The notes beneath the pieces are model-generated. The model did no database searches. It saw only the letters and a list, made by a program, of their open reading frames with translations, and was not told where the DNA came from. DNA of 64,000 nt, taken from Heliocidaris erythrogramma (taxonomy: Eukaryota; Echinodermata; Echinoidea; Camarodonta; Echinometridae). The stretch is taken from contig CM046854.1 of NCBI GenBank assembly GCA_025617745.1, positions 59,554,721 to 59,618,720 on the forward strand, given 5' to 3'. Shown in pieces: positions 2,389 through 26,748 of this stretch. The first letter of the stretch is position 1. Every line of letters begins with the position of its first letter. A program made the translations under genes and the position numbers.

Positions 2389-2551
2389 CAGATGATGCAC
2401 AGATTTATTTCGTGGGTCGGTAGAATTGTTTGCATTCGGTAAATTTGGCCTGGTCTAAAACACACTCGGCTGCGCCTCGTGTGTTTAAACCATGCTCAAA
2501 TTTACCTTATGCAAACAATTCTACCGACCCACTCATATCTGTGCATCATCT
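2389..2551. repeat. Long hairpin (about 75 bp arms)
   Basis: Arms read ACAGATGATGCACAG... and its complement ending CTGTGCATCATCTGT. Both arms contain the GGGTCGGTAGAATTGTTTGCA segment or its complement, and tcggctgcgcctcg is the loop. It looks like a fold-back element or MITE. Confidence 0.65.
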
Positions 2552-3832: not shown

Positions 3833-4076
3833 TGCTAACGATTTTGCCAAAGACTGAAAGAGTTCAAAGAATTATTCAAAACTGTCACCCGGTCGTTGTA
3901 AGGTGGATATAGATATTGTGTATAGATATTAAATATGCAGCAATACGTTTTTGAAAATTTCCATTACAAGGATACCAGATAATATGTATATATACATGTA
4001 TATATATATATATATATGTTGTTGCTGCTACACATAGCAGCAACAACATCAACAACTCATCACGAGCCATTAGATC

Positions 4077-4105
4077 CTGAAGAAGGCCTAAATAGCCGAA
4101 AGCTC
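4077..4105 (+). other. Degenerate hammerhead-ribozyme-like motif
   Basis: CTGAAGA, stem GGC..GCC (4085-4087 with 4095-4097) and GAAA (4098-4101) keep the order of a hammerhead core with one change (CTGAAGA for CTGATGA). It lies between TA microsatellites, as does the better copy at 29258. Activity is doubtful. Confidence 0.35.
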
Positions 4106-4398
4106 GATTAAAACGTGTATGTATACCAGCTACGTCTTTGTACAGTTCCTAGACTTTTCTTCTGTTTACGCATATCTATATCTGGAACACCGTCGGTCAT
4201 GTATAAGTTGAGCATCGTTACACTCCTATATATATATATAATTATATATATATATATATATAATTATATATATCTATCTTCAATATTTTGTTTTGTTGCT
4301 GTAATGAGTACATGGAAAACCACAATTTATGTGAATGTGTTAACCTGTATAAATAACAGAAACAAATGAATAAATAAATTAATATTATTCTGTACTAG

Positions 4399-4755
4399 CT
4401 CCTCCTGGTGAACCGTACCCAATAATCCAAGAATGTACCGGGAAATATGTACACCCTGGAGCCTGTACTTTTACCGTCGATTCAACATCAAAACTCACCT
4501 GCCTTGTGGAGGGATACTATCCAGACATCGAGCTCTACTTCCTACATGGATCTGATATTGTGACATCCACTGAATATCGAGAATGGAACAACACCGATGG
4601 GACAAAAAATAAAAATGTGACAGTTTTGATCAGCGTAAGTGACGAACCCTACCAATGCGTGGCCTCCGGATTGCCCGGTATTGCTGGAAACAGAACCGTT
4701 TCAGCCTTTGTCGAAGCCCGTTCTGAAGATCCAAATGCTGCTGCAATCGTTGTTC
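4399..4755 (+). CDS. Exon: immunoglobulin-like extracellular domain
   Basis: The acceptor is ctgtactag and the donor gtaagt at 4756; the exon is 357 bp, phase 1-1, as is usual for Ig-domain exons. It encodes about 119 residues. The B-strand motif LTCLVEGYYPD (Cys about residue 35) and the F-strand YQCVASG (Cys about 87) form the canonical Ig disulphide pair, with C1-set-like spacing. The usual core Trp is not in its normal place. Two extra cysteines (about residues 13 and 23) may make a second bond. Three N-glycosylation sequons (NNT, NVT, NRT) support an extracellular location. The exon ends with the hydrophobic NAAAIVV, which runs into the membrane helix of the next exon. The ligand cannot be predicted, and earlier Ig exons may lie upstream. 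Confidence 0.85.
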
Positions 4756-6492
4756 GTAAGTTTTAGCAATAACTTTTTATTTTATTTGCTTGAATAGGAT
4801 GTTAGGCCGAATGAAATTGATTCCGATTTTCTCGTCGCCTCCTCATTCTTATTTTTAACCCGCCTCATTTTTTTTTAATACCCAATATTTATGTTACACA
4901 TGAAGAAAGAAGAATCTGATGAAACCTAGACAATGAGAATCACAAAACTAATATATGTAGTGCGGTGTCAACTTGTTTTCAGCCCGTTAGTGCATAGCTA
5001 TGTAGAATTTCATTTCAAAGATTTTGAGTTGAATTTGATCCAACAGCATTTGTTGAAAATATCAATTTGATAAAAATATCTAATCTATAATTAGATTTTA
5101 CATGGCCATATGCATTATATTTATTTCATAAATTGGAAAATGAAGGAACATTCTTATACAATAAGAATGATGAAATATCACTGCGGACTACGCAGGTGTT
5201 ATGGGTATGTAAAATATTCCGAATACCACATAAATTAAATAGCATTAACAAATGCACTGCACTCAGTTAAGTCACAATGAGACGGATAATGAACTCGACA
5301 AGTCTCGTTCATTATCCCATTGTGTCTTAACAACCGTGCAGTGCATATTCAATATTGCACTCGCAAACATGCATTATTTGTATAATAACATCTCATGGTT
5401 TGGGGTACGTGCGCGTAACGCGTAAAAAAGTGAGCACGCGTTTAAATACGCAAAGGTTCATACAATGGAAGTATTGAGCAGCTCTTCCGAGATGCTTGGG
5501 TAAGGACAAAATAATGTTTTTTCTACCCGTGTTTCATATTGAAGTCAATACAAAAACATAAGGACATAATGGTGAAAATTGAGGAATTGGGTTTCATACA
5601 AGTAATAATAATAATATTGAATGGGTTTTTTTTCGTGGGACACAACGGTATATCGCACTCGCTTTGAAAATATTTCACTCGTCGTGCCGACTCGTGAAAT
5701 ATGCTAATAGCTAGTGCGATATATTTTTGTATCCCACTCAAGGCCATTCAATATTATATAAATATTCCATATTTAGGTTCTCTACGCGTAAGGAGCATTC
5801 AAGATGTTTCAATTTACATTATACATTATCCACTTATCAGCCCTACAAACAATTCTCCAAAGTGAAATCAGAATAGTGGTGTTTAGGTTAAAAATTTGAA
5901 ACATTTCCACACCAACTGGCTTTAATAGGGGAGGGGCGCCAAGGGGGTCACGTGAAAGGGGAGAGAGGAAGGAAAGTGGAAAATAATGTGAGATAATAGA
6001 GTTTACAGTCAATTTGAAAAAAAAAATATTTGCTTTTGTCCTGCAACTGCATAATATTCCAGAGTCATTTATAAGGCCTAGTCAATTTACGTATTTGGCC
6101 ATTCATTTTCGGAATTTATTTTTCATAACTCGTGAAATATGCTAATAGCTAGTGCGATATATTTTTGTATCCCACTCAAGGCCATTCAATATTATATAAA
6201 TATTCCATATTTAGGTTCTCTACGCGTAAGGAGCATTCAAGATGTTTCAATTTACATTATACATTATCCACTTATCAGCCCTACGCATTTACCCCACACC
6301 ATATTCTTAAAGTCATGTTTGTCAGTTATGAATTATACAAATCAAATTATTGTAGGGTTTTCATAACCTCATAGGATAAATGTATAGCAATGATGCTTAT
6401 CATTTTCTTGACATAAGAAACGGAGTAATTTCACATTATTGTTATCGTGTTTTTCTAAATGCATTTGTTTCTGCATGATTTTGTTGATCAAG
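4756..6492. other. Intron 1 with hairpins and a templated duplication
   Basis: Contains hairpins at 5252-5346 and 5607-5757 and the 157 bp duplication that flanks the 281 bp insert (5690-6284). No further exon seen. Confidence 0.6.
5690..6284. repeat. 157 bp direct duplication flanking a copied 281 bp insert
   Basis: 5690-5846 and 6128-6284 are essentially identical 157 bp copies (actcgtgaaatatgc to cagccctac). Between them lies a copy of 3550-3832. The first copy starts next to the loop of the hairpin at 5607-5757, so the duplicated unit begins with that hairpin's right arm. Confidence 0.8.
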
Positions 6493-6564
6493 CTGTACTT
6501 ATGGTTCTTGGAGTATGCCTTTCCATAGCTGTACTTTTCAAATCTTATCGTGGAAATGGCAGAG
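6493..6564 (+). CDS. Exon: transmembrane helix and stop-transfer
   Basis: This is a 72 bp exon, too short to show up as an ORF. Its acceptor is ttgttgatcaag and its donor gtgagt at 6565. Joined in phase 1 to the Ig exon it reads P then VLMVLGVCLSIAVLF followed by KSYRGNGR. With the preceding AAAIVV this makes a hydrophobic helix of about 21-23 residues with basic stop-transfer residues, so the protein is type I with a cytoplasmic C-terminus. The donor keeps phase 1, so it could splice to any later exon of the gene. The next recognised exon is 14.5 kb downstream; small exons in that repeat-filled intron cannot be excluded. Confidence 0.8.
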
Positions 6565-6904
6565 GTGAGTTTTATGATCAGGAGTATTCAATTATGTAGA
6601 TTTAGAATTCATATTGTAAATTTGTTACAATTTTCGTCATAATCTAACGCGCGAAACATGAGGAGTTTCCGAATAAATGTGAGTAGAAATTTCAAATAGC
6701 AAAATGAAAGAATTTTTCCTATGACTAATGACCTTTCGGAGGATAGGGAAGTCACTAGTGGAAAATCGACGCTCCTGATTGGCTTATAAACTCTAGAGAT
6801 GTGATTCAGTCGTTTCATTACAGTACTACATGCATCCAGTGTACAGTACATGCAGCGGGCAATTACTACTTAGTATCGATATCCGGATTAAGCTATCGAA
6901 CATA

Positions 6905-8080
6905 TCCATCTGTTTCAGATCTATGGGTCTAGATGGCGAGGAAATAGTAATAATTGAAGAAATATATGCATATATTCCAGTAGAATTGAAAGTTGAAGTA
7001 AGGAGGAATACTTCAATTGATGGTTTAAAGATCGACTTTATGTTCTGTAAAAAGGTTTTCCAGTTTGAATCGGTTCGTTCAAAAAATTTGTATAGAGCAT
7101 GTATTAAAAATAAGGTCGATACTCCAGTTAGCTTTCACAATCTAGAACTATCATATAACATGTCTGAAAAAGAAATTGAAAAGGTATTTTATCGTCCTAG
7201 ATCGTGCACATTGGATAATAAGTTGAGAGAATTTCAATTTAAATTATTATATAATATCATCTTTGTAAATCACCATTTATATAGGTTTAAATTTATATCG
7301 AGCAATAAATGCTCTTTTTGTGGTAAAGATGAAGAAACCTATAAACATTTATTTTATGAATGTGAAATGGTTAAAATATTATGGAAATTGTGTAGCAATT
7401 TCTTAAATTTTTCAGTTCTTAAGGAATTAAGTTGGAAGGATATCCATGTTGGATTAGAGGAGACAGCTGAAAATAGACAATTACTTAATCATATTATTTT
7501 ACTCATTAAATATTTAATATACCACGGAAGGGGGAAGAATAAACCACCAACTGCTGAAGAGATACAAGAAAAGCTAATTAAAAGTAAAGAAGAAGAAAAG
7601 AAGATAGCAATAGAGCGAAAAACATTAACACAACACTATAAAAAGTGGGAACATTTAAGGTATTGAGAATCAACTAAAGAAGGATGGGGAGGGGAAGGGT
7701 TCGGTGGGTCTGCGCGCGTCCGAGGTTGACCGATCTGTGCCGCTGTGGACTGCCCTCATTTTTTTTCCCCTTTGTTTTGTTTCGTTTTTTTTTTTGGCGT
7801 TTATGTGTTTTGTGAGTGCGGGAGAGTGTTTTTTTCTCCTTATTCATTCAGTGTCATTTCATTGAGCAATTTCTGTATATTAGGCTGTTGTGTACATGCT
7901 TTACGAAATTGTTAATTTATATTGTTACATTTTGTATTATTTGAACTGAATGATATATTGTTACATTTTGTATTATTTGAACTGAATGATATATTGTTAC
8001 ATTTTGTATTATTTGAACTGAATGATATATTGTTACATTTTGTATTATTTGAACTGAATGATTTTAATAAATATTATTAC
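6905..8080 (+). mobile_element. 5'-truncated L1/Tx1-like LINE (copy A)
   Basis: A single open frame to 7666 (LINE part from about 6922) encodes the C-terminal part of a LINE ORF2. It begins MGLDGEEI and carries the zinc-binding CSFCGKDEETYKHLFYEC (zf-RVT type) at 7309-7362. The polymerase and endonuclease domains are missing. The 3' UTR contains four 36 bp direct repeats (7921-8060) and ends near an AATAAA. It matches copy B at 13600-14757 closely, so both belong to one family. It is inserted in the large intron in the same sense as the gene. Confidence 0.8.
7921..8060 (+). repeat. Four tandem 36 bp units in the LINE tail
   Basis: The unit attgttacattttgtatta... repeats at 7921, 7957, 7993 and 8029 with no or very few changes. 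The sister element at 14690-14757 has only one unit, so the array arose in this copy or its parent. Confidence 0.85.
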
Positions 8081-8691
8081 AAAACAAAAAAAATATGTTT
8101 ATGGCAGAGGAGAGATTCTGCCATAAAGTTATTTCGGCAGTGGGTGGGTGTGTTGCCGGCTTCTTCTTAGTGAGCCCTAATCCTAACAGGCAAATTATAT
8201 CAAGAGACAAAGGCTTGGGTGTTCATTCTTCGTTGGTAATTTAGTTTTATGGCAACTTGTTCTAACTTGTTACACTGGTCGTTTGGTATGCAACCGGCAT
8301 GACGGGGGTTAGTAACTGTTTATGTTGCAAATACTTCAAGAGAAAGTTTGGGGGCACATTTTATCAAAGATTATTTAGTGACAATAATTATTTTTGCAAC
8401 AGGGGGAAATGTAAAAAAAATATCATATATAAGCCCAGTTGAGGTGAATGTATCTGTTTAACGGCTTATGATGCAAATTCTTCCAGAGAATTTTTTTTTT
8501 TTTTTTTAATTTATTGAATAACTTTTCTCTAATTATAGTTAACTAGGTACATTGTTCAATTGAGATTATACTGTAAACTATCAAAATTACAAGCATAGGG
8601 AGAGGGTAGTGTCACAAGAACTCAAATGTCCACGGGGTCTTTGTATAAGACACGTCTTCTCTTGATAGGGTCTCCTTGTTTGTTTTATGTA

Positions 8692-10362
8692 CAGTTAACA
8701 ACAAAATTATTCATACCCCTGGAAAATTCTAGTTTTTTGCATTTTTCCTAAAAATGAATGGTTAACTGAATTTAATTACACATCACTTGAATACATTTAG
8801 TTATCATCTGCAAATGAATGCTGTTTCTGGTTTCACCTCATTTGCATAACAATAGAAAAGGTGAATTATCCAAACTGGGTGATGTTCAAAATTATTCATA
8901 CCCTTGGTGATCTATTGACTTTGTCAATGAGTATGAATCCAGTCCTTGTGATTAATGCTCGTAACACTTTCTTCACACTGTCACAATGCTTCTGGAGGTC
9001 TCTACTGAGATATCAGGCCAATACCTGGTCTCCAAAGGCCCAATCGCCTTGAGGATGTTGTCCACACATGCCATCACCTGGTCTTCAGGGGATTTGGTGG
9101 ATTTAAAGCAGATTTTGTGTTTGCAGGTGGTGTAGTTTTAGACGTCATGAGGATAGAACTATGATATTGATATTTCGTTAATATTCCTTACATTTTAATG
9201 ACAATTCTGTATTTCTAAGTTGAAACAAAGCACTCTTCCTGGAGGGACTTCCCTAGAGGCCTTCACTGTTGCACTGTCAAGGGAAGGTATTTCCTGATAC
9301 TTTTGTTCCATTATTATTAAGAATGTTTAGGGAGGCCATGGTAGTTGTCTAAAGGTTGGATGGTGCCAATTTTATCAGTTTATTCAGTTACACTGATTGA
9401 CACATTTTTGATATGGACACCTGCAAGTGGGTACTCTAGTGAAGCTTAAAATACTCTGATCTTTATGTTCCAGTGCACTGTCAAAGTGGTAGCATTTTGT
9501 GCACTGCAGCTGGTAACATGGAGGGCACATGGTATAAATTTGGTTTACATTCATTTTGATATCAAGGATTGTAGCTTTCATACCAAAGATACAAAGAATA
9601 TACCATATGAAGATGATATACAGTAACAGTCAATGTGGGATGTGTATGGTACTCAAAGGTTACATTCTGTTATTCATGGTGACCTGACGTTAGAGTCATG
9701 CAATGACTTTAATATCACCAACATGGCCTTCCTGAGCACTCTGATTAAGAATGGGGCCAATGAATAAAGGTGAACCCTCCCACAGGCAGTGCAAAAGGGA
9801 AGGGCTCTTCAGGAATGGTGCTTTGCTTCATAAGTAGATACAGAATTTTCATTAAAATGCATGGAATAAATGACCGAAAATTTCAATATCATAGTCCTGT
9901 CATCATGAAGTCGATAACTGCATCACCTGTAGGACACGAAATCTAATGAACTCCCTGAAGGTCAGGTGAAGGCATGTGTGGACAACATCCTCAAGGAGAT
10001 TGAGCCATTTGAGAACAGGTACTGGCCTGATATCCCAGCAGAGACCCCTCCCCGGAAGCCTTGTGATGGTGTATTAAAATAAAGTGAATTACAAGCATTA
10101 ATCACAAGGATCGGATTCATACTGATTGACAAAGTCAATAAATCACCAAGGGTATGAATAATTTTGAACATCGCCCAGTTTGGATAACTCACCTTTTCTA
10201 TTGTTATGCAAATGAGGTGAAACCGGAAACGGCATTCATTTGCAGATGATAACTAAATGTATTCAAGTGAAGTGCAAGTAACTTCATTTAACCATTCATT
10301 TTTAGGAAAAATGCAAAAAACTAGAATTTTCCAAGGGGTATGAATAATTTTGTTGTTAACTG
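8692..10362. mobile_element. 1.67 kb fold-back Tc1/mariner-like element
   Basis: It is flanked by TA at 8690-8691 and 10363-10364. The ends are CAGTTAACAACAAAATTATT and its complement. Inverted arms continue for about 650 bp (8692 to about 9345, about 9690 to 10362), leaving a loop of about 350 bp. Inside each arm the motif AAAATTATTCATACCC recurs about 188 bp from the outer copy (8701 and 8889; 10149 and 10334), like the IR/DR layout of Tc1-type transposons. No transposase frame was recognised, so it is non-autonomous. Confidence 0.8.
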
Positions 10363-10564
10363 TATATGTCTTGTATGTTTTTTTTTTGTTTTTTTCTTTG
10401 TTTCTTTCCTTGTTTCTTTCCTTGGTGTCAGTTAGCAGCGGCATTTTGATCTCGGTCAGCTTTAGGTGGGGTGCAACGGTCTTCCTCTTCTCATCCTGCA
10501 TTATAATCCCCTCCTCATACCCTTATGTATAAGCCTAAATCTTCCATTTGCAATTTTATATAGG

Positions 10565-13500
10565 CCTATCTAAATTTTAAGGGTATTCCAGAGAAAAATA
10601 AGAGACGAAGTATTTTTAAATGGTGCAAAGAAAAGAGTAGACATATTATTTTTCTGCAGGAAACCTTCAGTACTCAAGATATAGTCAATAACTGGAACAC
10701 TATGTGGGACGGGAATTGCATTTATAGTCACGTTACAAATCACAGTAAAGGCGTTATGATATTAATTGATAAAGGATCGATATTAAATTAAAACACACTA
10801 TTGTGGATTTGGAAGGCAGGTACATTTTCAAAATTGGGTCGTTACAAAATCAACAGGTAATACTGGGAAATGTTTACTTCCCTGATGGAAGTAAAAGAAC
10901 TGGAACAACCAGAGTTTTTGCACAAGATTATTAAGATTTTAGAAAAGGAGGAATTTTAAAAACAAACCTTGTTAAGTTTGTTGTAGGAGGAGATTTCAAT
11001 ACGGTTAGGGATATATATTTATATTACAATGGAGGTAATATTAATAAAAATCAATCCAAGCTAAGTATGCAGTTTGAAGACTTTTTAATTAAATACAAGG
11101 CACTGGACATGGCGATTACAAAATGCCACAAAGAAACAATTCACATATCATCAAGAAAATCCTTACATGCAAAGTAGATTGGATTATTGGGTAATTTCAG
11201 ATGTTTAAAGGAGAAAGTGTTAAATAAAAAAAAAATACCTTCATTATCACCCGATCACTCAGCAATAGAGTTTAATATTAATATCATTGCTATTAATCCT
11301 ATAATAAAAACAAGTTACTGGAAATTTAATAATAGTTTATGTAATGATGAAGAATATGTTAAAAGTATGAAAGAAGAAATAACTCGTTTAAATTAAAATT
11401 ATCCAAGGAGATTGCAGATGGTAAAATATTATGGGATTATGTTAAAATGGAGGTTTAACTAGAAAATATCCCATGAAAAAGGCTAAGGAAAGAAAGCAGA
11501 AGGTTGCCAAGTTAGAACACGAAATTGTAAAAATAGAAGAACTACAACCGCGACACATAGGAATAGTGATCTGATTGAGACTTTGGCAAGAAAAGGGAAT
11601 GAATTAAAAACAATTTACGCTTATGTAAATGAAGGTATAAAAATCAGATCTCGAGCGCCATGGTTTGAAAGTGGGTTTGAAAAGGGAAACTGCATATTTT
11701 AAACAGTTGTTAGAGTCCAAGGGGAGAAAAGGTATTATTAAAGAGTTGAAAGTGAAGGAAAATATAATTGATGACGAAATTTATATTTTAAACGAAATCA
11801 GAATATTTTACTCAACATTGTATTCTAAATCAGAAATAGTATTATGTGAGAACTCTATTTTTCCCCCTAACAGCTTACCTAAACTAACCGAAAACAAAAA
11901 AAATAATTTAAGTGTTAAGCCTAAAGTTGAAGAAAGATGGGAAGAACTTTTTCAAAAAAAAATATAGATTGGAAATGTATATGGTTATTTAACTTACAAG
12001 CTGTTAAAGAAAGTAAAATAATAGAGTTTAATTACAAGTTATTACATAATTTAATACCCCACCGGTATAACTTATACAAATGGAAGTTGGGCAATAGTCC
12101 GCTATGTTCAATTGACGGTGAAATACATTACACTGTTCCCCTATTTGTAACGTGTGAGAAAACACAATTGTTTTGGGGAAAATTTAAATATATTCTATAT
12201 CAACTTTTCAATATTGAGATTAACTGCAACGTTTCAACTTTGATAAAAGGATACGAATTGAAAAACAAAAAGTACAAAATTCTCAATCTTTTGATAATCT
12301 ATGCAAGATATGCACTTTATTCAATTTTTATTCGAACAGAAAACCGAAATTGCATATTTCATGAGTTAGGTATACTCAGTTTATTTAAAAGATTGATTCG
12401 TAATCGTTTGGAACTGGAGAAACATTGCAAGAGTAAGAATCTGTGTATTTTTGAAAACAGCATTGTTGAAGACAACATCTCATGTTTTGTATGACATTGT
12501 TTTGTATCATCTGTTATGAATTTGACATTTGATTATTAATAAATGTTTTTAAAAAAAGAACAAAAATCACTGAAGGAAAGATAAATCAAGGAGATTGTAT
12601 TGAAATTCTAAAAGAAATGCAATTGAATAAATCGCCTGGAAATGACGGATTGATTGTTGAGTTCTATATCACATTTCGGTGACTTAGTCGTTGATGCATT
12701 TAATGATACTCTAAAGTATAAAGAATTGTCGCCATCTCAGAAACAAGCAATAATTACCCTCATACATAAAGAAGGTAAAGACCCGACGCTTATTAGTAAC
12801 TATAGACCTATTTCCCTACTCAATGTAGATTACAAAATTCTCACTAAGATACTTTCTAAGAGAATAAAAGCTATTCTGAGTAATGTTGTGTCAGTTGATC
12901 AAGTAGGTTATTTAAATGATAGAAATATTGGCGAAGCCGTCAGAATAATTAATGACATGATTCTTCACTCATCAAATTTTAGTAAACCAGGGTATTTATT
13001 AGCAATTGACTTCGAAAAGGCTTTCGATTCTGTGTCACATGTTTTTATTCAAAAGGTATTAAACTCATTTGGTTTTGGACCGATATTCAGTGAATGGGTT
13101 AAAATACTTTTTAATGCACATAGCTGTGTCTTTAATGGAGGGTCATCAACCGGTTATTTCAAAGTCGAACGGGGCTAAGACAAGGAGACCCCCTTGATTA
13201 CAAACAGGGGGGGGGGGCTAAAGATGCTTAATTTTAAACTTTTCGTTGTGGTACAGAGGGTAATGTGGATCAAAAGACTCGTAACTGGAGATCAGAAGGT
13301 AAAATGGGGGAAAAAAATCATTAAAATTTCTCCTCAAACCATTCGGTGGTAATTTATTTTTTTATTGCAACCTTTCGCCTGATATGATCTATATAAAGTT
13401 ACCCAAATATTACCAGGAAATGCTTAGTATTTGGTTTGATATGAATATGTTTATTAATGATATAAGTAATAAAAGAAACTAAATCTTCTATAACAACAGA

Positions 13501-14757
13501 TATATTCAGAAGAAAGGAAAAACATATTTCCATGAAAATATTTTCCTTAAAAATACATTTAAATTGCATCATATTTCAGATGAAGAAGATGCACTTAAGT
13601 CAGATACTTATTTCGGATGTATGGGACTAGATGAAGAAGAAATATCAGTGATCAAAGACATATTTGCAGACACCCCTGGAGAATGGAAAAGTGAATTTAA
13701 AAGGCATACTTTAGTTGATGGGTTAAAAATTGAATTTATGTTCTGTAAAAAAGTTTTCCAATTTGAATCAGTATGTTCGAAGAATCGGTTAAAGAAACTG
13801 AAAAAGTCTTTTATCGTCTTAGTTTAAGTACATTGGACAACAAATTGAGAGAATTTCAATTTAAATTACTATATAACATTGTCTTTGTAAATCATCATTT
13901 ACACAGGTTTCAATTTATAGCAAGTAATAAATGTTCTTTTTGCGGTAAAGATGAGGAAACATATAGACATATATTTTTGGATTGTGAGACAGTAGGGACA
14001 TTGTGGAAATTATGCAGTGATCTGTTTAATCTTCCAATTCTTAAAGAATTAAGCTGGAAGGAAATCCCCATTGAGGTAGATGAGACAGCTGAAAATAGAC
14101 AATTAATCATATTGTTTTACTAATTAAATATTTAATATACCTTGGGAGGGGAAAAAAATAAGCCACCGATTGCTGAAGAGATACGAGAAAGGCTACTTAA
14201 GAGTAAAGAAGGAGAAAAGAAGATTGCATTCGAGCGAAACACATTAACACGACACTATAAAAATGGGAACATCTAAAAGTATTAAGCACTAATCAAAACC
14301 AGAAGAAGGATGATGGGAGGGGTCCACCGGGTTCGCGCATTCTGGACTTTGATCGATCTTCGCCGCAGTTTTGTAGACTGCCTTTTTTTTTTTGGGGGGG
14401 GGGGGGGTTTGTTTTATGTTTCTTTGCAGGTGCGTATGTGTGTGGGTGCGTGTGGGCGTGAGGGGGGATTCTAATTATGTTTATTTGTTTCGTTGTCTGT
14501 TTGACTTGTGACATTTGTAGGGGGCGGGAGCGGGGTCAGCATGGCCAAATCTCCGATTCATTCAGGGTGATATAAATTGTTGACCATTCAATACTTATTA
14601 ATAGGTTATATTAGCAATATAATAACATATGTCTTATGAAGTTACATTATGTGTTAAGGTTCATGATTCGACTTATATTGTTAATATTAATATTAATAAT
14701 ATGACTATATTTTGCATAATTGAACTGAATGAATAAATAAATACTACTTTTAAAAAA
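10565..14757 (+). mobile_element. Degenerate L1/Tx1-like LINE (copy B), interrupted
   Basis: Pieces appear in ORF2 order. The endonuclease start has LNFKGIPEKNKRR and IIFLQETF (10566-10680). VVGGDFNTV follows near 10985 and SPDHSAIEF near 11250. The reverse transcriptase has NYRPISLLNVDYKILTK and AIDFEKAFDSV (12654-13178). The C-terminal zinc segment CSFCGKDEETYRH is at about 13931. It carries many stops, a frameshift at the RQGDPL motif (about 13170), loss of the region with the YADD-type catalytic motif, and a deletion near 13784 relative to copy A. The 3' end at 14757 has AATAAATAAA and an A run. The endonuclease and RT are not functional. Confidence 0.8.
11928..12556 (+). mobile_element. 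Second LINE 3' fragment nested in copy B
   Basis: An open frame (11937-12494) encodes a LINE C-terminus of another family: FNYKLLHNLIPHRYNLYKWK, a cysteine/histidine segment and FVTCEKTQLFWGKF. It ends with AATAAATG and an A run at about 12540-12556. On its left copy B stops after the L1-linker words LPKLTENKKNNL, and on its right copy B resumes at ITEGKINQG. This fits a 5'-truncated insertion. Target duplication is hidden in A-rich sequence. Confidence 0.65.
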
Positions 14758-14769
14758 AAATCTATATCT

Positions 14770-14897
14770 GGGCCCTCTTGCATAAAAAGTTGCGTTTACA
14801 CGCAACTCTATTTTTAACCAATCAGGATCGCGTATTTGGGGCTTGCGTTAAATTTTTTGAGTTGCGTTTAATCGCAACTTTTTATGCAAGAGGGCTC
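14770..14897. mobile_element. 128 bp MITE
   Basis: Terminal inverted repeats GGGCCCTCTTGCATAAAAAG and CTTTTTATGCAAGAGGGCTC flank an internal gttgcg/cgcaac arm. It sits immediately after the end of LINE copy B. Confidence 0.75.
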
Positions 14898-14899
14898 TG

Positions 14900-16915: not shown

Positions 16916-16919
16916 TCTG

Positions 16920-18120
16920 TAGAGTAGAAGTAATAAATGAGAGAATGAGAACAATAAAGGAAAACGTATGAAACAAGAGAAGTTGAGGATAAAAACAAAG
17001 AACATCATAAGGAAATATATACATAAAGGAAAAATATGAGAGAAAAATAAAAACAAAGAATAACAAGGGAAAGACAGAAATAGAAAGAAAGAAGAAAAAT
17101 TAAAAAATACTTAGGAAGGGAAAGATGTAAAGATAAAAAGAAAGAAGGAATAAAAACAAACAAGGAAAACGATGATATATTAGATAAAAGGAAAGACAGA
17201 AAGAGAGGATGATAGAGAGATTGAAAAAGAACATAAAGAAAGACAGAAAGAAAATATGAAAAAAAATCAAAACCAAGAATGAAATAAGGAAAGATATGCA
17301 GAAAGGAAAAATATGACAGGAAAATAAAAACAAAGAATAACATAAGGGAAAAATGGAAATAATAAGGAAATAATTAGGAAAGGATAGATTATAAGATAAA
17401 AAGAAGGAAAGAATAAAAACAATCATAAGGGAAAAAGGATGATATCAGATAAAAACAAAGAATAACAAAAGGAAAGACAGAAATAGAAGATGATAGAGAG
17501 ATTGAAAAAAATATAAGGAAAGACAGAAATAGAATATGAAAAAAGATCAAAACAAAGAAGAACACAAGAAAGACAGAAAGAGAAGAAATGTCAACACAAA
17601 GAAAAACATAAGGAAAGATAGAAAGAAAAAGCATGAAAGAAAGATAATTTAAAAGCAATAGGAAAGCTAGGAAAAGAAGAGAATGAAGGAAAATAAGGAG
17701 ATATACTTAGGAAAGAATAGAAGAAAAGATTAAAAAAAGGATAGAATAAAAAGAAAAACATGAGAAAAATAGAAAAGAATTGTAGGATAAAAAAACAAAG
17801 AGTAACATAAGGAAAGATCGAACATAAAAGAAGATAGATAAAAATGAAGTTAATGACAATGAAACGATGCAGAGGGGAAATATGGGAAACATAAGGAAAG
17901 AAAGAGAAAAAATGATAGGAGGAAGAAACAAAGAATAACATAAGGAAAGATAAAAAGAGAAAAAAGGGAATTACAGAAGGAAAAAGAAGATGAAAGAAAA
18001 CTAAAATGCATTCGAACGATAGAAAAAGAAGATGAAAGAAGGCTACAAACATGTAATTATATAAAGAAAACAATTTTTAAAAGAAGATGAAAGAATAAAA
18101 TAAAATGTATAATAACAAAA
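16920..18120 (-). repeat. A-rich minisatellite array
   Basis: About 1.2 kb of degenerate units such as aacataaggaaagacagaaa and aaaaacaaagaataaca. It is the reverse complement of the T-rich arrays at 29630-30330 and 31940-32580 (ttatgtatttctttgttttt). The Phe/Leu-rich open frames on the minus strand are by-products of this composition. Confidence 0.8.
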
Positions 18121-21078
18121 AAGGAAAAGTGCACGCCGAAATTGGCCCTTGGGTCAAACTGGCTCTCCACAAGACACCGTGTTTTAAAACGACGTTTTTG
18201 TATTGCGATTCATGTTCGTGATTCTAGATAGCTTCAAATATTGCTTGAACGCACCCTTTAATCCGGAGAATAGTTTGCCCGCTGCGTGTATACTGGATGC
18301 ATGTTGCGTACTGTGTACATTGTGAATAGCTGTACTGTGCATGTGCTTGACTCACTGCACTCTGCATTTTAACAAAACGACTGAATCACACCTCTCAAGA
18401 GTTTATAAGCCAATCAGGAGCGTCGATTTTCCGCGAGTGACTTTCCCACCCTCCGAAATAAATATTGCTCCGGGGGTGGGGGAGGTGGTGGGGGGTTGAT
18501 TTGAGTGGTTTGCTGTTGTACAGTGTTTTTTAGTAGTTTAGAATCTGGTCGATTTTATTTTAAGACCAATCTCCCGATTAGGTAGGGCAATTCCAACGTA
18601 ACAAATATGACATTCAGATCTATTTTGGGTTATTTAAGACATTTCTAAGCAAAATCAAAAGTCCTAGAACATATCTCAGTAAGCAAATCAGACACATTTG
18701 ACTATCAGGGACATACACAGTTAATTTCACAGTATTCCACTGAATATATGAAGAGAAAATGGACTCTTTGTATCCGTAAAGAATATGACACAAAATGGAC
18801 AAGGATTTTTCAAACCTGCGAACAGTTTGAAAAAAAAACCCTGTGACTTTGGGGTCTAATTTATGTATGAACAGAAGCTTATAGTAATACTGTTAAAATT
18901 AATATATTTTGTGAAACGATTACACTGCACATTTCGTTGTCAGAGCTAAAAAGTGGCGAAAGGACATGTTGGCTTGGGCGTAACGGGCATGACACTGCAT
19001 GTTGTCTGATTTTTTTTAAACTCCTATAACTTTGCTTTAAAATATTCAATGGCTCATGTATACCTCATATCAGTGATCTTTTCTTCCATTTATATCAATT
19101 TACAGCCAAAAAATAAATCTTACTTGTGGTGTGAAATAATGTGACTTAAAGTTTTGACAAAAATTGTCACGTTTTGCCCCAGAAGTGATTTTTTTTTAAA
19201 GAAAATCCTTAGTAATTGTACTTGAATCCCATTGACATACCAAACAAATTGAAGAGTTTGTTTAAGGGAAATCCAACCTCAATGGCAAGTTGTTCAAAAA
19301 GAAGGGGGAGGGAAATCAGATTGGGGAAAGTTTGAAAGAAATCGGACAAGCAATAAGGAAGTTATGGATTTGGGAAAGTTGTAATCACTCTACATACATG
19401 GGAATTTCAAATTGACCAAATAGGTAATGACACTTTGATGTAGTGGCGGACAACTCCCCGTTTGCTCCAACACACAAATGACTAAAATGTCATCATGTCA
19501 TCAAAATGTATTACTCTGTAGGCTCTTTTCCTTTCAAGCGGACTTATCACAATATGCTATCTACAATATATTCTACCCTATGGGAAATGGCGATTAGGAG
19601 AAAACCGCAAATTGATGACATTTAGTGTACGAGAGACGAGAGAGTTGACCTCCAATATGTCAAAATGGACTCACCAAATTGCCAATATGAGATTGGCATA
19701 GATTTAGTATTCTCACTTTTCAAACTTAAATAACTTTCTTATTCCTTGTCAGATTTCTGTTTTTCCTGGGGTTTTTTCTCCTGCTTTCACACAAATCAAA
19801 TTATTACCAATGTTTGATTGCCCATAAGCTCTTTTGTTTGATACTAAATATGCCATGGTAGCACAAATATTTCTGGAGTTATTTTCAATTCATGATTTTT
19901 GGCGAGTGAACATTCTCCGTTGAATTGCCTATTGCCTGATCTCCCCTAATAACTGCTGCTGTCCCCTAATAACTGCTGCTGTCAGGCAAGATGATGTTTG
20001 CACCAATTCGCACGCCCAGCGGAAAAAATAAAATCGGACATATTCTGAACTAATACCCGAGCGGTACGGAATTCCTCATGATAACCCAAAGCCTAGATTG
20101 TACTCTATAAATAATTAGTTTAATATGGTATTCGATTTTGTTTCGTATTTATTTATCTATGTTTTATTATTATTTTGTTTGTTTGTTTTGTTTTGGTTTG
20201 TTCTTGTTTGTTTTTTGTAGGGGAGGGGGTCTAAACTGAGTTGTGATTGTACTTAGGCCTACCCTAATTCGACTTATTTTAACAAAGCCTATTTTTTTCT
20301 TGTAAAATTAGAATACTTCATAAACTCCTGTGGCGTACTCAGCATATCTGAATATGACGGAGCCGTAACCTCTTACGGTTTAAAGTCCCCGCAAAAAGAA
20401 GGTTATTAAACGTGCACAGGTTGTATGGCTTATATGCAGTCTGAATAATATAACATTGCCCCCCCCCCCCCCCCCCTGTCTTGGGAGGATTCGGCCTCTT
20501 GTTCATCAGTTTTCGAATATGCCACTGCAATCTTTAGACTAAAGTCATGGTGTGGTTTATATTCCTCTGCAGTTTCGGGCAGGACACACGACTTTATGCC
20601 CGTACCCAGACGGAAGGGTAAGACATTGAACAATTCTGTATCATGGTTTTCAAAAACTAGACACATTAATAGATTTATCCTTGAAGTTCCTTTTGTGGTA
20701 TTCGATAACCTGCTCTGTGATTGGTACGATTTATTGCATATATGCCGGATATATAAAGCTTAAGTATTTACTGACTTAATTTATATCACATCAATTCAGC
20801 AAAGCTCGAGCACTGTGAAAGGCCAGGGGGCAAATCACCAATATGTGGTCAACTCTTTCTTTAAAGGTTATACATGTAGTAGTATTTATGTGATGAAGCA
20901 TAAACAATTTTCTCAATTTGCTTTTTAAAAGAAAAACGTGATTAGCACTGTTTGACTTACGCTTGCACTGAAATAAGGCATATATAAAACCAAATTATTG
21001 TGATATAAATACGACAAAGAGGTCATAATTAATTATAATTATAATTAAATGATATCTTTTTGTTTACGACATTTCTAG
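18121..21078. other. Rest of the large intron; no exon recognised
   Basis: 18275-18470 is an inverted relative of 6725-6880. 19260-19930 contains related inverted segments (gaaatcggacaagcaataaggaagttat and its diverged complement near 19730), so it may be another fold-back element. 19940-19982 has a direct repeat of cccctaataactgctgctgt. A poly(C) run is at 20459-20476. Confidence 0.5.
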
Positions 21079-21345
21079 CCCCCAAAGGACTTATATCTAA
21101 ACTTGAACTGTGGAAACTGGTGAAAGAAGCTAAAGAGAGCAACGCTCACCAGAAACTTAAAAAAGCTTTGCGTCGTCTTAGACGGCTGCCGAAAACTGCC
21201 GCATCAAAATCATTCAAGAACGTCGACTACTACGAAAGTCTCTGTATGTGGAAAAGTGATACGTCTTCCGACTCTGATCAGAGGAAGACGCTATATTCTG
21301 CCTGTTGCAAAGTCGGAATGTCTGACATAATTAGGAAACTGAAAG
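21079..21345 (+). CDS. Exon: death-domain-like module 1
   Basis: 267 bp, phase 1-1, 89 codons, acceptor tttctag, donor gtatgt at 21346. The start is Lys/Arg-rich and helical (LWKLVKEAK, then KKALRRLRRLP) and probably lies next to the membrane. The second half has the helix 5-6 pattern of death domains: YYESLCMWKSD, an acidic/serine loop, then LYSACCKVGMSDIIRKL, which resembles the usual 'LL..W...L..AL..VGM.DIA..L'. Death domains are six-helix bundles that assemble homotypically in apoptosis and NF-kB signalling. The family call rests on this pattern only; specificity cannot be told. The frame can be read through to a stop at 21438, but the splice pattern shared with the other exons favours the donor at 21346. 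Confidence 0.72.
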
Positions 21346-21479
21346 GTATGTGGGCTGATATAAATGGAGCAAGGCCCTCGAGCTTTAAAAACTTTGTGTT
21401 GAATCACAACTTTAAAAAAAATAAACGCGATCCTGATTGATTAAAACAAATCAAGTTAAGCTTACTTTTTTGACGTGCG

Positions 21480-22425
21480 TTTAAAACCAACTTTTGTATG
21501 CAAGAGTCCAGATCCATATGCGTACGAGGCGGTAGTAGTATGGGAAAATACATATCGACCTAATGTTAAGCTATGTACACTGCAAAAAAAGGTTTTACGT
21601 ATCATATCAGGTTTTCATCTACTCTCCAGCAGCGATCCTTTATACAAATCTTTTAAATTGCTTCCCATTTAAGATATAAATAAACTTCAAAAGTGTACCT
21701 TGTTATACAAATGTCTAAACTCATAATTACCTGCTCAGGTATGTGGCCTTTCCCAACGTGTTTCAAATATTCATAAGTATGGTACTAGATCAACTGATGA
21801 AAGCTGTATTCCCAAACACGGTAAATTTATTTTTCAACTTAATATCCATTTCACCAGTCCTAAGCTTTGGAACGATTTACCTGCACCCATGAGGAATTCT
21901 GTGTCTCTGCTAAGCTTCTCATGGAAGCTATAAAATAGTGTATGATATTGGATTATAGTTCATAATACCTTGCTTGATTATCATTTTCAATCACTATCAT
22001 CCTAACCTGTTTCGAGTATCTTTTTGTAAGAATGCCTGTGAATATTTCGATATTTTACTCTCTTATATCTTGCCACAGTATTATCCATGCATGCCATACA
22101 ACTCCATTAGGCCTATGATTATTACTATTTTGCAATCCTCCTCCTTTTTCTCTACTTCAAGTTCCATATCCTCTTCTCTCCCTTTCTTTGTCTCTCACTT
22201 TCTTCTTTTCCTGTATTAATTTATATTCTATTTGTGTAGTCTGGCGTACCCGCTAGAAGCGTCTGGTTATCGGGATCGCGCCTTCTTCCTTGTATTGCAA
22301 GTTCTTGATTATATTCATATACTTTATACATGTATACATGTAAATTGCACTATTTGAACAGATGTTGAATGTTGTCCAAATCAGTGGCAGAAAATCAATG
22401 TTTATTTGAATTGAATTGAAAAAAA
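21480..22425 (+). mobile_element. Decayed CR1-like LINE 3' end in intron 3
   Basis: Broken frames keep typical LINE C-terminal words: VVVWENTYRPNVKL, LQKKVLRIISGFH and, after several stops, LWNDLPAPMRNSVSLLSF. The 3' end near 22425 has a tandem ttgaattgaattgaa tail, as in CR1/L2 elements. It lies between death-fold exons 1 and 2 in the sense orientation and does not affect their frame. Confidence 0.7.
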
Positions 22426-22600
22426 TAATTTCTGAAAATTTCAAGCGTATATTTATACTTTATATTTACCTATATTAATACTATAACGAGGAAATAAGGA
22501 CATTCTTTACCATGTTTCATATGGAGTTATCCGAATAGGTATTTTACATGTGTTCAAAATTTAGAAGAAAAAAAAAACTCTTTCCTGGTTTTGCACTCAG

Positions 22601-22876
22601 AATTCGTAATAGACACATCTGATGAAGTATCCAGAGTAAACATGGAGCACATTTTATGGGACATTCGAGATACGAAGAAAATAAGTGAACTTTTGAAAGC
22701 CCTCGGACTAGATCATGAAGCAGTTGCTTTCGCACATGAAAAGGGGAAAAGAGAGGTGATTGACATGGCACTGAAAGAACTATTGAAATGGCGAAATCGA
22801 GAGTTTGAAATGAACCCTACGGTTACCTTGAGTATGACGTTAGATGATCTTGAGTGCGAGACAAACTTCTTTAAGA
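22601..22876 (+). CDS. Exon: death-domain-like module 2
   Basis: 276 bp, phase 1-1, 92 codons, acceptor ttgcactcag, donor gtaagt at 22877. An acidic linker is followed by the death-domain-like KISELLKALGLDHEAVAF (helices 1-2) and a helix 4-5 segment LKELLKWRNREFEMNP. The final helix is LSMTLDDLECETNFF. The spacing between the 'LGL' motif, the 'LL.W' motif and the last helix fits a death domain of about 80-85 residues. No catalytic residue or known subfamily signature is visible. The module is probably a docking domain. Confidence 0.78.
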
Positions 22877-23562
22877 GTAAGTTAACAGAATTTCTTACAT
22901 ATTGAAGCCCCTTTCGATCTCTGGTCTCTTAGATATTGTGATTGTGATTATGAAAGCTTTATGTTTTTAAAAGTTCAGAAAGGAACATTCGGATTTCTTT
23001 AACACGTTTTAAAGTCATCACTTTAATAAAACAGATCAAAATTTATGTATTGTGATACAGAATCCTCGATATTAGACATCACGTTAGTAGATTGCTGGAA
23101 TAGCGAGTAGTGTTAATAGTAACCGATGTTTTCAAACTTTGCATTATCATATTAGATTTAATTCAATTTATATCTTTTTGAAAGAATAGAAAATAATTAT
23201 GCATTTTCTTCCAAGCACGAAACCTTTAATTGATATACATGTACATGTATCTATGATTATCTTTACAATTGATTATCGGGTTTGAAAATAATATTGAAAG
23301 ATATATTTCATGTGGAAACGTTTAGAGGAATTGGTATCCATGTAGAAATGACACCATCATTAGGTAAAAAAAATGTAAGAAAATGTAGCGATAACCATAC
23401 ATGTATATATAGACTGTGCTACTCCTTCTCCCTCATTTAACCCATTTAACAGATCAATTCGTCTCTAGCTCCTCGAATGATGTTTTCTTTCAATATAAAA
23501 ATCATTGGCATTGAAATATATCCTATAAATGTGATATCCTTTCTCCTGCTTAATTTGATTAG

Positions 23563-23844
23563 TACAAATGAGCAAGAAGGAGGAAATACATATGGATGAG
23601 ATTAGGGACATATGTCGTCAGATCTCTAAGCAACACTACACGTATTTGCTAAAAGCTATTCGAGATAATCTTGGAGAAGATATACCGGATCAAATCGAGA
23701 AGTTTGTCGATGAAAACAACGATTCGCTCTTCAACACCAGCCAAATGCTCCTTGACTGGTTAGAAGATGAAGAGTGCAGTGAATATGAGAAAAGAAGTAA
23801 ACTTCAAAAAGCCTCCAAAGCTACTTCACAGAGAGATCTCAGAG
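23563..23844 (+). CDS. Exon: death-domain-like module 3
   Basis: 282 bp, phase 1-1, 94 codons. The acceptor is taatttgattag and the donor gtaaat at 23845. A charged start (SKKEEIHMDEIRDICRQI) leads into YTYLLKAIRDNLGEDIP and then SQMLLDWLEDEECSEYEK, the strongest death-domain-like helix 5 of the series. KRSKLQKASKATSQRDL follows as helix 6. The internal ATG at 23568 is in frame, but the open frame continues through the acceptor in phase 1, so it is treated as an internal Met and not as a gene start. Confidence 0.78.
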
Positions 23845-24221
23845 GTAAATGATGAAATAAATGTCCCTTTTTATTATTTTTCTATTGAACAGAGGATTTT
23901 ATTTGTAAACAAAAACAAACAAACAAAAGAACTACGCCTTAACCTGTTTATAAACGGTCATTTGTTTTCTACTTTATGTAATCAGTTCATCCTTGCAAAT
24001 TTTCTTTCATAATCAAAAAATGAGCACTGGGAAAGGATAAATGAAGAAATGTAATACATTTGATTTCTGATTTACGTACATGTATATTGTGTAAGATTAC
24101 ACATATCCTTACAACTACCAATTATATTTCATTCCCGATCTCTTTCCTAAAGAACCATTTACACATTTTCGCTCTAATTGTGATCAGTATAAGTTTGTCT
24201 TTATGGACCAATTTACTATAG

Positions 24222-24449
24222 CAAACTGGCCTCCTGATGATGAGTTGAGGGTAATTGCAAGTTGTCTTTCTCCGGCATCAGTGGGACAACTATGCTCCAA
24301 GCTTGGCATTAGACGCCCTCCTTCAGAAGCTAAAAAGGAACAACGGTTTAAGGCACTCATCGAGTGGAGAGACTGTCATGCCGCGTCAAAAGATCTGACA
24401 GAGAAACACACTGAGCTTTTCACTGCACTTAAAGAGCTCAAACAAGGAG
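24222..24449 (+). CDS. Exon: death-domain-like module 4
   Basis: 228 bp, phase 1-1, 76 codons. The acceptor is atttactatag. Another AG at 24187 would give phase 0 and break the frame, so 24222 is preferred. The donor is gtaaat at 24450. The sequence starts NWPPDDELRVIASCL, then VGQLCSKLGIRRPP, RFKALIEWRDCHAASKDL and LFTALKELKQ. This matches the compact death-domain order: Trp/Leu helix 1, 'LGI' turn, 'AL.EW' helix, final 'L..AL' helix. It is the shortest and most canonical module of the array. Confidence 0.78.
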
Positions 24450-25021
24450 GTAAATTTCACAGTTTTTAATGAGGAAGAGTCCTATTTTCCACAAGAATAC
24501 GATGGTCTGTAGGAAAGGGACTAGAGTTTTCATTTTTTATCTGCTTTTGTAAAAACAACAGTGTTTCTTCTTCTACTTAACCTGCTTAAATATAAAGTAG
24601 TTCTGGTCATGGGATTGAATTGTGAAAGAAATTGTCTAAAAGCAATTGGGAAAGGTTGATTATAGAGCACACAAATATTGGTGTAAGGGTAAGGTTTTGG
24701 AATCATCCAAATGATGAGAAATTGGCTCAGTCCTGCTGAGTCATATGCACTGCACACAGACATGTGTATATGGGACTGCGCACCAACGTTCGGCTCGAAC
24801 ATTTCAGAAGTTTCTTGTCATATTTTGAATGTGAGAGCATTTGACGAGCAATCCTTTTTAGGGGACATATCTACTATAATAATCTTCCAAACTAACACCA
24901 AAAGAATGAGAAAGCTGACAAATTATTTTTTTCCCTTTCCTAGAACTCTAGCTTCCCTTTAACTTGAAAATATGCCTGCCATAATTTTTACCATAAATCT
25001 ATTTTACCCATATTCTGGTAG

Positions 25022-25315
25022 GCCTGATTCCTCGTGCAAAGGATCAATTAGTCTACAAAGCTGAGCAAGTGGACTTGGCGTTTCACCTGTTCGCTCAAGA
25101 CCTTATTCCTTTTACGGAGGCTCTGGGTATCAGTGCTGCTGAACTGATTACCTACAAACAAGCTTTTCATCAGTTGCACATGACACTTGGTACAATCGGC
25201 CTTGTCTGTAAGCTAACTCACAACATTTTTGACCAGGAGACTGGACAAAGGTCTAGGTTCTTCAATCTTTTAAAGCAGATGCCATATCAAAACGTATGTG
25301 CGAGTGGAATGCTAG
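25022..25315 (+). CDS. Exon: death-fold-like module 5
   Basis: 294 bp, phase 1-1, 98 codons, acceptor attctggtag, donor gtaagt at 25316. It contains FAQDLIPFTEALGISAAEL, a good helix 1-2 and 'LGI' turn, then the helices YKQAFHQLHMTLGTIGLV and RFFNLLKQMPYQNVC. The Trp common in helix 5 of death domains is replaced by Phe, and the last helix is poorly conserved, so it could be a death domain or another death-fold class. Position, size and phase agree with the neighbouring modules. Confidence 0.7.
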
Positions 25316-25559
25316 GTAAGTGGTAATGGACTTGTTGTTTTTGTGGCTCCCTATGTTCCATATTTCAATTCAATCCATTTCAATTCATTCTTTATTCGAT
25401 CAAATATAATCATAAACAAATGAATAATTAAGAAGTTGGCTCAAAATGTAGACTATATTGCATAATTCTTCGTCAGGCCTAACATGTCCTGACGAAAAAA
25501 AAAAATTATTCATGATTCATTTAACGTCGTGTGATAATCTTTCATTCATTCATATTTAG

Positions 25560-26024
25560 CTCTTGAAATTAGCTACGGTGAAGTGTGTGCCATATATGTT
25601 CATCCTGACAATCGTCAAAAAGAACCAACAATGCAACCTTCAAGCATCAAAAGCAACTCCATAACCATCGTCGGAGAAAATTTGTCCTCAGAGGACGAGA
25701 TCAGGTCCATTCCCTTAGGAGCTAAGCCCGAAGTACCTCATATCAAAATACAGGGAGATGCCACATATGATGAGTGTGTTCAGAAACATCAAATCGATAT
25801 TTATGACGAAACAACGAGTGGTCTTATGACGCTGCTAACGTCAACGAATGAAGTTGAAGATCATAATAAGAAATCTACTAAATCCTTGATTGCCTTCGAT
25901 CACTTCAAATCTTGGAGGGATCAGCCGCGCCTGATACCATTCAATTGTCGCCTAGCTATTACTAAGGCTTTGAGGAGCATGGACAACCATTATCCGGCAT
26001 ATCTGGTAGATACTTTCCTTCAAG
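25560..26024 (+). CDS. Exon: long linker plus partial death-fold-like segment 6
   Basis: 465 bp, phase 1-1, 155 codons, the longest exon of the array. The acceptor is catatttag; the donor gttagg at 26025 is weaker than the others. The first 90 residues are polar, rich in Ser, Glu and Asp and probably disordered. The last 45 contain AFDHFKSWRDQPRLIP and ITKALRSMDNHYPAYLVD, which resemble helices 4-6 of a death domain without a clear first half. Possible readings are a degenerate death domain, a linker with short docking motifs, or a domain completed by the next exon. Tyr residues in the acidic linker (ATYDE, DIYDE) could be phosphorylation sites, but that is conjecture. Confidence 0.65.
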
Positions 26025-26383
26025 GTTAGGAAATAAGTTCTTTGTATGTGTTGGATATTTTAAAGGGTATTCGTATAAAACAATAGCTATTCGCATTTTA
26101 ACTGACACCAACTGAACTCGCTTGTCAATCGGTTCCAGCTTGCAACTCGCTCAAAGCAAGCTACTAATTTAATATCATTAATTTTCAATACATTCAACTC
26201 ACTGGCATTATTTCAAAGTCTCAATGAGCATTTTAGGAAGGCCCTCCTTACCCAGAGTCTTACAAATGGTCTTACTGGTGATACGATTTTATTGTTGTAA
26301 ATTGGTTTCTGTTTAGTGTTATTTATATTTTCTTTCACTTAAAACAAAAAAGTTTGTTTTTCTTCTAAATCTTTTCCACACAG

Positions 26384-26748
26384 GTGATTGCAACAAAGGG
26401 AAGGTACCGTTTACACTCCTTTATGATATGTTCCTAAACATGCATCCTGACAAACGTGACATCCTTGGCAAGCTGTTCGTAGAATCAGGATTCACCAAAG
26501 TGTTGAGTAGAGTGTCCATGATCCCTCAAGGAGTTGAAGACTGGTCTCAACTAACAGATGCGGTTTGTGGAAAGATGCATGAATGGATCGAAAAATGGAT
26601 ACAACAAATGAAGAGCAAGGGTGGCGATCTCCCTACAGCAGAAATGGCCAAGAAGCACAAGGAATTCAACGACAAGCTTGTAGATCATGGCTTTTTCGAC
26701 CTTGCACGCGAGATCATGATTTGTGAGCAGCAACTGATAGATGAATAG
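26384..26748 (+). CDS. Terminal exon: C-terminal death-domain-like module 7
   Basis: The acceptor is ttttccacacag; the exon is 365 bp in phase 1 and ends with TAG at 26746-26748. It encodes about 121 residues. HPDKRDILGKLFVESGF and VEDWSQLTDAVCGKMHEWI are amphipathic helices; a Lys/Gly loop follows, then EFNDKLVDHGFFDLAREI, which fits a death-domain helix 6 ('L...G..DLA..I'). The protein ends CEQQLIDE. No obvious C-terminal PDZ or lipid motif is present. The ORF has no stop from the acceptor to 26745, supporting this as the last exon. Confidence 0.74.

Follow-up and report, generated by a model that had tools for sequence, protein, structure and literature searches.

A putative immunoglobulin receptor with an array of probable diverged death folds belongs to a clustered gene family in Heliocidaris erythrogramma

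We analyzed a 64,000-nucleotide stretch of the genome of the sea urchin Heliocidaris erythrogramma (assembly GCA_025617745.1, contig CM046854.1, here called C2, positions 59,554,721-59,618,720), referred to below as the window. Between window positions 4399 and 26748 on the + strand lie nine exons with AG/GT borders, one encoding an immunoglobulin (Ig) domain, one a transmembrane (TM) segment and seven cytoplasmic modules. We consider it fairly probable that they belong to a type I receptor composed of a V-set Ig domain, a C-type-like Ig domain, a single TM helix and a cytoplasmic part of seven phase-1 exons holding some four to six death folds, that the receptor recruits adaptors and that it is one of a multigene family. 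The features of the locus, numbered by window position, are as follows.

4399-4755, + strand: E1, membrane-proximal Ig exon, C1/Ig_3-like, phase 1/1, 118 amino acids, three N-glycosylation sequons
6493-6564, + strand: E2, transmembrane exon, phase 1/1, KSYR after the helix
6797-13178, + strand: retroelement-bearing part of the E2-E3 intron, with matches to zf-RVT (E 5.9e-9, 6797-7663) and RVT_1 (E 2.5e-18, 12654-13178)
21079-21345, + strand: E3, cytoplasmic module 1, death-like
22601-22876, + strand: E4, cytoplasmic module 2, death-like, of the EHILW...LxxW...NPxVxLSLALE family
23563-23844, + strand: E5, cytoplasmic module 3, death-like
24222-24449, + strand: E6, cytoplasmic module 4, death-like, acceptor moved from 24153 on the basis of paralogues
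25022-25315, + strand: E7, cytoplasmic module 5, predicted death domain by way of homologues, the window copy being without tryptophan
25560-26024, + strand: E8, cytoplasmic exon 6, a variable N-terminal part of about 60 amino acids followed by a conserved C-terminal part
26384-26748, + strand: E9, last exon, possibly death-like, with the HKEFNDKLVDHGFFDLAREIM motif and the stop codon

All nine exons are entered and left in phase 1, and when spliced they encode 890 residues ending at a stop codon at 26746-26748. The TM helix straddles the E1/E2 junction and is the sole strongly hydrophobic stretch of the protein (hydropathy 2.93, next best elsewhere 1.40). The E6 acceptor is most likely at 24222 and not at 24153, since the former matches the paralogues. 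Within positions 20901-26400, phase-matched exon candidates of at least 80 amino acids numbered 0, 6 and 0 in phases 0, 1 and 2, respectively. Because 200 dinucleotide shuffles of the same segment gave a mean of only 0.01 phase-1 candidates (maximum 1), chance does not explain the array. Over the whole window, 6/9 candidates on the + strand were receptor exons; of the remaining three, two fell within retroelement frames and the third in a neighbouring frame outside the scan. The - strand held three candidates, two of them within retroelement frames.

The gene appears to extend beyond the window. An open V-set exon, also of phase 1/1, was located at C2:59,525,779-59,526,120 (genome match listed at C2:59,525,811), about 28.6 kb before the window and 50 kb before E3. 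It scored above the Pfam cut-offs for V-set (E 1.1e-8) and Receptor_2B4 (E 0.00017), and joining it to the window exons gives 983 codons, including a split first codon and one stop. E1 stayed under the cut-off with C1-set (E 0.016) and Ig_3 (E 0.019); its best match in PDB was an IgY heavy chain (E 0.028), antibody heavy chains dominated the 60 matches listed, and ten more copies, 65-81% identical, were found elsewhere in the genome. The predicted protein has the layout of an Ig superfamily receptor, with Ig domains outside (V-set above and E1 below the cut-off) and a single TM helix. From these exons we place the start of the gene outside the window, which would carry its 3' part. No start exon was found in window positions 1-4399, and the 3.3 kb immediately preceding the V exon yielded one low-complexity candidate and no convincing signal-peptide exon, the stretch from L086 to the window lying outside this search.

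Related loci were sought across the complete assembly of 26 contigs (1.064 Gb). Its COX1 gene reads AAA as Asn, AGA as Ser, ATA as Ile and TGA as Trp at conserved sites, which corresponds to NCBI table 9, the code of echinoderms and flatworms, and the encoded protein resembles that of a sea urchin. With the spliced protein as query there were 54 matches at E<=0.01; single modules gave 51 (E4), 61 (E7) and 46 (E9) matches at E<=1, and a V exon derived from contig C7 gave at least 88 at E<=0.001. Three paralogous loci on the same contig as the window (A, 59.66-59.68 Mb; B, 60.39-60.41 Mb; C, 60.21-60.23 Mb) carry most window exons, 41-81% identical and arranged in the same order, with phase-1 sites at corresponding places wherever exon ends were readable. 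E8 was not found in locus A, and in locus C E6 was not found and E8 was partial; E8 of locus B is 41% identical to that of the window. In locus A the E3-E4 unit is duplicated, so that E3 and E4 each occur twice. Two loci on C7 contain a V-set exon, an E1-like Ig exon and a TM-like exon, together with matches to E5, E6, E7, E8 (weak) and E9, with no E3 match and with E4 as a stray match in one of them.

These loci also bear on the continuity of the gene. E2 and E3 are 14.5 kb apart, and the Ig/TM exons and the array could be two neighbouring genes joined across this gap. Two weak start-exon candidates (8818-8860 and 20596-20617) and one internal candidate (20510-20617) within the gap speak for such a split, and the frame alone cannot exclude it because all exons are of phase 1. 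Against it, the gap here carries retroelement pieces, and V, Ig and E9 exons succeed one another in constant order on the same strand in four sets on C2 and in 11 complete sets among the 13 V exons of C7, a tally based on the matches listed for C2:59-60 Mb, C6, C7 and C17. In the two C7 loci described above, the stretch from V to E9 covers 8.4-8.9 kb. We therefore regard two separate genes as very improbable and treat the nine exons, together with the upstream V exon, as one gene.

Array-bearing loci were counted by chaining matches at E<=0.01 (24/38 for E3, 46/51 for E4, 55/61 for E7, 36/46 for E9 and 81/88 for V) wherever the links did not exceed 45 kb, a chain being counted if it held at least two kinds of module. 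Seven V matches were left out, five on C4, C12 and C20 and two that represent second V-like exons on C7. We obtained 47 such chains, all on C2 and C7, a count that depends on the rule, which may merge neighbours or split long genes. The V exon leads 33 of these; the chain of the window gene was counted without one because its own V exon lies so far before E3. Unlike module neighbours within 12 kb were in canonical order in 75/76 cases, the single exception being the E3-E4 duplication of locus A, and no module neighbours within this distance were on opposite strands. Judged from these matches, the gene belongs to a multigene family in which roughly 47 loci carry arrays, clustered on two large contigs. 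V-Ig pairs without an E9 match were also seen, five at C6:50.2-52.4 Mb and one at C17:0.09 Mb, and for want of that match these members probably carry other cytoplasmic tails. A second, more distant V-like exon precedes the V exon at C7:20,437,376, at C7:20,659,643 and in several chains at C2:12-13 Mb, so that some family members may have three Ig domains.

A first-pass annotation of the window, made from the sequence alone, had described one receptor with an Ig exon, a TM exon and seven cytoplasmic exons in one frame. Splice borders, uniform phase, shuffles and paralogues all confirm that frame, and each of the nine exons is present. The exon model was amended at the start of E6 and had lacked the upstream V-set exon, which lies outside the window; the order of Ig, TM and array was correctly recognized, and the locus is one of dozens.

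We then considered whether the cytoplasmic modules are death folds, beginning with single sequences. Queries to Pfam and PDB, whether made exon by exon or with the joined protein, returned little. E3 matched Pfam Death below threshold (E 0.0014, 19.1 bits), and among 24 module sequences from the window and its paralogues Death was matched by three (best E 0.00099). A Death hidden Markov model (HMM) was built from 11 sequences, with 1235 overlapping pieces of E. coli proteins as controls. The number of controls scoring as high was 2 for E3, 0 for E4 (8.6 bits), 3 for E5 and 3 for E6 (counted with the longer exon version), as opposed to 141, 217 and 321 for E7, E8 and E9. For E5, the corresponding counts were 3/1235 with DED and 11/1235 with CARD. 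The window copies of E7-E9 gave no signal with Death, CARD, DED or PYD, and adding E3-E6 to the profile brought no gain. Alignment of single exons to Death with hhalign was ambiguous: among 284 E. coli pieces, 0, 3, 4 and 9 scored as high as E5, E3, E4 and E6, respectively, and in global mode 3/284 were as high as E6 and the remaining exons were lower. Helical periodicity did not discriminate.

A joint alignment of E3-E6 scored 23.5 against Death, compared with maxima of 17.9 for 150 sets of E. coli pieces and 20.0 for 100 shuffled sets. In a jackknife with Death plus the other three modules, controls as high as E3, E4, E5 and E6 numbered 0, 2, 2 and 0 of 1235. The motif L-[LICVMF]-x-W is present in 4/7 exons, a count reached by 0/2000 shuffled sets; it occurs in 10/284 E. 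coli pieces and in 2/11 known Death domains, and at the same distance from the end in 3/1235 pieces. Since this motif was chosen after the sequences had been seen, it is only supportive.

Family profiles were compared with Death against 120 column-permuted profiles (119 for E9), of which none scored as high as E5 or E7, one as high as E6, five as high as E3 and one as high as E9. The four-sequence E5 profile reached 21.9 with Death and 9.9-12.0 with CARD, DED and PYD, and the 24-sequence E7 profile reached 23.9 with Death. One E7 homologue, L108, found by window E7 at E 1.0e-5, matched Pfam Death at E 0.00025 (21.5 bits, below the 22.6 cut-off) in an alignment that takes in positions 16-83 of 86; five further E7 homologues were scanned, and none had a Pfam Death match. 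With the Death HMM, 8/24 members of the E7 family fell in the top 5% of controls and at least four were above all 1235 pieces. Among 23 E4 members, L050 (13.3 bits), L059 (11.1 bits), E4 itself and L058 were above all 1235 pieces, and most members were not. Searches in the reverse direction placed 7/11 Death domains in the top 5% of controls with the E3 HMM, 8/11 with the E4 HMM (1/12 for CARD, DED and PYD together) and 7/11 with the E7 HMM (4/12). The modules partly appear to find one another as well, with 13/24 E9 sequences in the top 5% for the E3 HMM and 4/4 E5 sequences for the E9 HMM. Matches to VapB, BRR2_plug, Stonustoxin_helical and Phage_P2_GpE, each in one or two members (three for Phage_P2_GpE) and below the cut-off in the member shown, were attributed to chance.

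Several of our results weigh against a death-fold assignment and are compatible with related helical bundles of another fold, which would merely look like death domains and would scaffold other partners. No window module is above the curated Pfam Death (PF00531) cut-off of 22.6 bits, and E3-E6 score 4.7-8.6 bits with our HMM as compared with 11.6-69.7 for 11 left-out known Death domains. With E8 and E9 included, the joint E3-E6 alignment dropped to 15.8. E4, although among the best-sampled modules, remains weak with 23 sequences: its profile scored 15.5 against Death, 3/150 and 5/120 permuted profiles were as high, and at E<=1 Pfam found Death in one member (E 0.15) and Death_TNFRSF11B in one (E 0.039). 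The top 5% of the Death HMM takes in 7/23 E4 and 7/24 E9 sequences, and the E6 and E8 HMMs each rank only 2/11 Death domains that high. The E9 profile does not discriminate, because its score with CARD (15.6) is close to that with Death (15.9). On the other side, L108 covers nearly the whole Death profile, the E5 and E7 profiles outscore every permuted profile and prefer Death to CARD, DED and PYD, and the reciprocal searches with E3, E4 and E7 place most Death domains high. We thus consider another fold rather unlikely.

On balance, the sequence relation to Death is weak yet transitive, and we read E3 and E7 as diverged death domains; E4, E5 and E6 are very probably so, and E9 is possibly a death fold. 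E8 showed no relation to Death beyond the controls (8/120 permuted profiles as high). Diverged death folds are accordingly assigned to about four to six of the seven cytoplasmic modules. Several death-domain-like exons had been noted at first pass, rightly, but it took homologues to support them; of the four to seven tandem death folds then suggested, about four to six stand, E8 is left unassigned, and E6 and E9 show a weak likeness to a death fold. A genome-wide Pfam Death scan, in which 150/338 candidates were scored, returned at least 137 matches at E<=0.001, and none of those listed lies in the array. Among those listed, clusters occur on C6, C10, C11, C14 and C21, for example at C6:33.1-34.4 Mb and C21:8-22 Mb. 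The genome would thus hold a large death-domain repertoire apart from the Ig-array family.

The ratio of nonsynonymous to synonymous substitution rates (dN/dS) was below 1 in 41/46 exon pairs, with ranges of 0.25-0.59 for E3 (6 pairs), 0.29-0.42 for E4 (3 pairs) and 0.45-0.68 for E9 (6 pairs). The remaining 5/46 pairs, at 1 or above, count against the receptor interpretation (1/15 for E1, 1/6 for E5, 1/3 for E6, 1/6 for E7 and 1/1 for E8, the single E8 pair at 1.21). The window copy might be a pseudogene or an unexpressed relic, since stop codons interrupt some of the paralogous matches, others are absent, and the stretches searched for a signal-peptide exon gave none that convinced. We hold this to be improbable, given that every exon of the window copy is open with usable splice sites and that most exon pairs have dN/dS below 1.

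Several other features were noted in the window. Two tRNA-Thr (TGT) genes in opposite orientation lie at 52171-52728, inside inverted repeat arms of 152 nt that are 98% complementary. An 898-amino-acid open frame at 43780-46473 (- strand) has a reverse transcriptase match and an endonuclease match just below threshold, as in a non-LTR (long terminal repeat) retroelement, and another non-LTR retroelement, in which both endonuclease and reverse transcriptase have a frame, lies at 37070-39454 (+ strand). At 35134-36021 (- strand), an integrase C-terminal fragment is followed by an acidic repetitive tail, which is probably what remains of an LTR element. Degenerate T/C-rich repeats whose hydrophobic open frames were judged by eye to be non-coding form long tracts at 17005-18076 (- strand) and 29595-32623 (+ strand).

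Vertebrate death receptors normally have one cytoplasmic death domain, and known death receptors rely on adaptors for oligomer building. TNFR-type death receptors and p75NTR, which combine cysteine-rich TNFR domains with one death domain, resemble the receptor described here as type I receptors that signal through a cytoplasmic death fold, but differ in that Ig domains replace the cysteine-rich domains and an array replaces the one death domain. A Pfam scan of the spliced window protein found no TNFR cysteine-rich repeats, no TIR domain of the Toll/IL-1 receptor kind and, for the window gene only, no NACHT domain. UNC5 netrin receptors carry Ig domains and thrombospondin repeats outside and ZU5, UPA and one death domain inside. 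They share the Ig ectodomain, the one TM helix and a cytoplasmic death domain, whereas the modules here are many and diverged; thrombospondin repeats, ZU5 and UPA were absent from the six Pfam matches (E<=1) of the spliced window protein, scanned without the V exon. Vertebrate V/C-type Ig immune receptors of the 2B4/SLAM group form multigene clusters and signal through tyrosine motifs. The likeness lies in a V-set plus a second Ig domain, with the V exon above the Receptor_2B4 cut-off, and in the clustering; unlike them, the receptor has no immunoreceptor tyrosine-based activation motif (ITAM) that we could find, and one site resembling the inhibitory motif (ITIM).

Among invertebrates, AjNLRC4 of the sea cucumber Apostichopus japonicus, described as a membrane protein that binds microbes (PMC8699970), is the closest precedent that we met in echinoderms for a membrane Ig receptor with this activity. 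It likewise has Ig-like and Ig domains outside, but contains NACHT inside and two TM segments where the present receptor has a death-fold array (PMC8699970). A parallel among marine deuterostomes is offered by amphioxus hybrid immune genes and Apaf-1-like proteins, in which death folds have been shuffled and repeated in a lineage-specific way; in the available parts of these accounts, death domains are double at most, and no array is described on a V-type Ig receptor (PMC2575513, PMC2246300). Double death-domain repeats are named there in Apaf-1 relatives, and a table counts 87 death domains in sea urchin and 139 in amphioxus (PMC2246300). The literature searched, to which most subscription articles did not belong, contained no V-type Ig receptor with a death-fold array, and the phrase "tandem death domain" was met for engineered FADD. 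This agrees with the initial remark that no described family with this order is known.

Most likely, the gene encodes a receptor of immune type that would recruit death-domain adaptors through its array. The V domain would bind a non-self or self ligand, ligand binding would cluster the receptors, and distinct modules might bring in different adaptors with death domains, of the MyD88, IRAK, FADD or PIDD kind. Such a pre-formed platform could start NF-kappaB or caspase signalling. Exon skipping or duplication would alter the number of modules while keeping the frame, because every exon is of phase 1/1, and locus A is an example of a gain.

The receptor may instead serve adhesion, phagocytosis or inhibition, with an array that titrates adaptors or binds the cytoskeleton. 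The two-Ig membrane receptor AjNLRC4, which is described as acting in phagocytosis via actin (PMC8699970), offers a precedent, and one ITIM-like site in E8 also speaks for this alternative. A search for signalling motifs found neither an ITAM nor a TRAF motif, which counts against the adaptor-recruiting reading. However, several distinct modules are kept in fixed order across dozens of loci, which suggests a partner for each of them, and we judge a non-activating role unlikely. We favor the adaptor-recruiting receptor and, more tentatively, propose that it represents a large clustered V-type Ig immune family in which different death folds are strung in cis, each with its own partner and in adjustable number, undetected by present domain searches.

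The array family escapes Pfam Death detection. In an invertebrate, it would couple recognition by V-type Ig domains, across dozens of clustered loci, with the toolkit of cell-death signalling. If several different death folds do reside on each chain, the family would provide a natural test of whether module order and number set the output.

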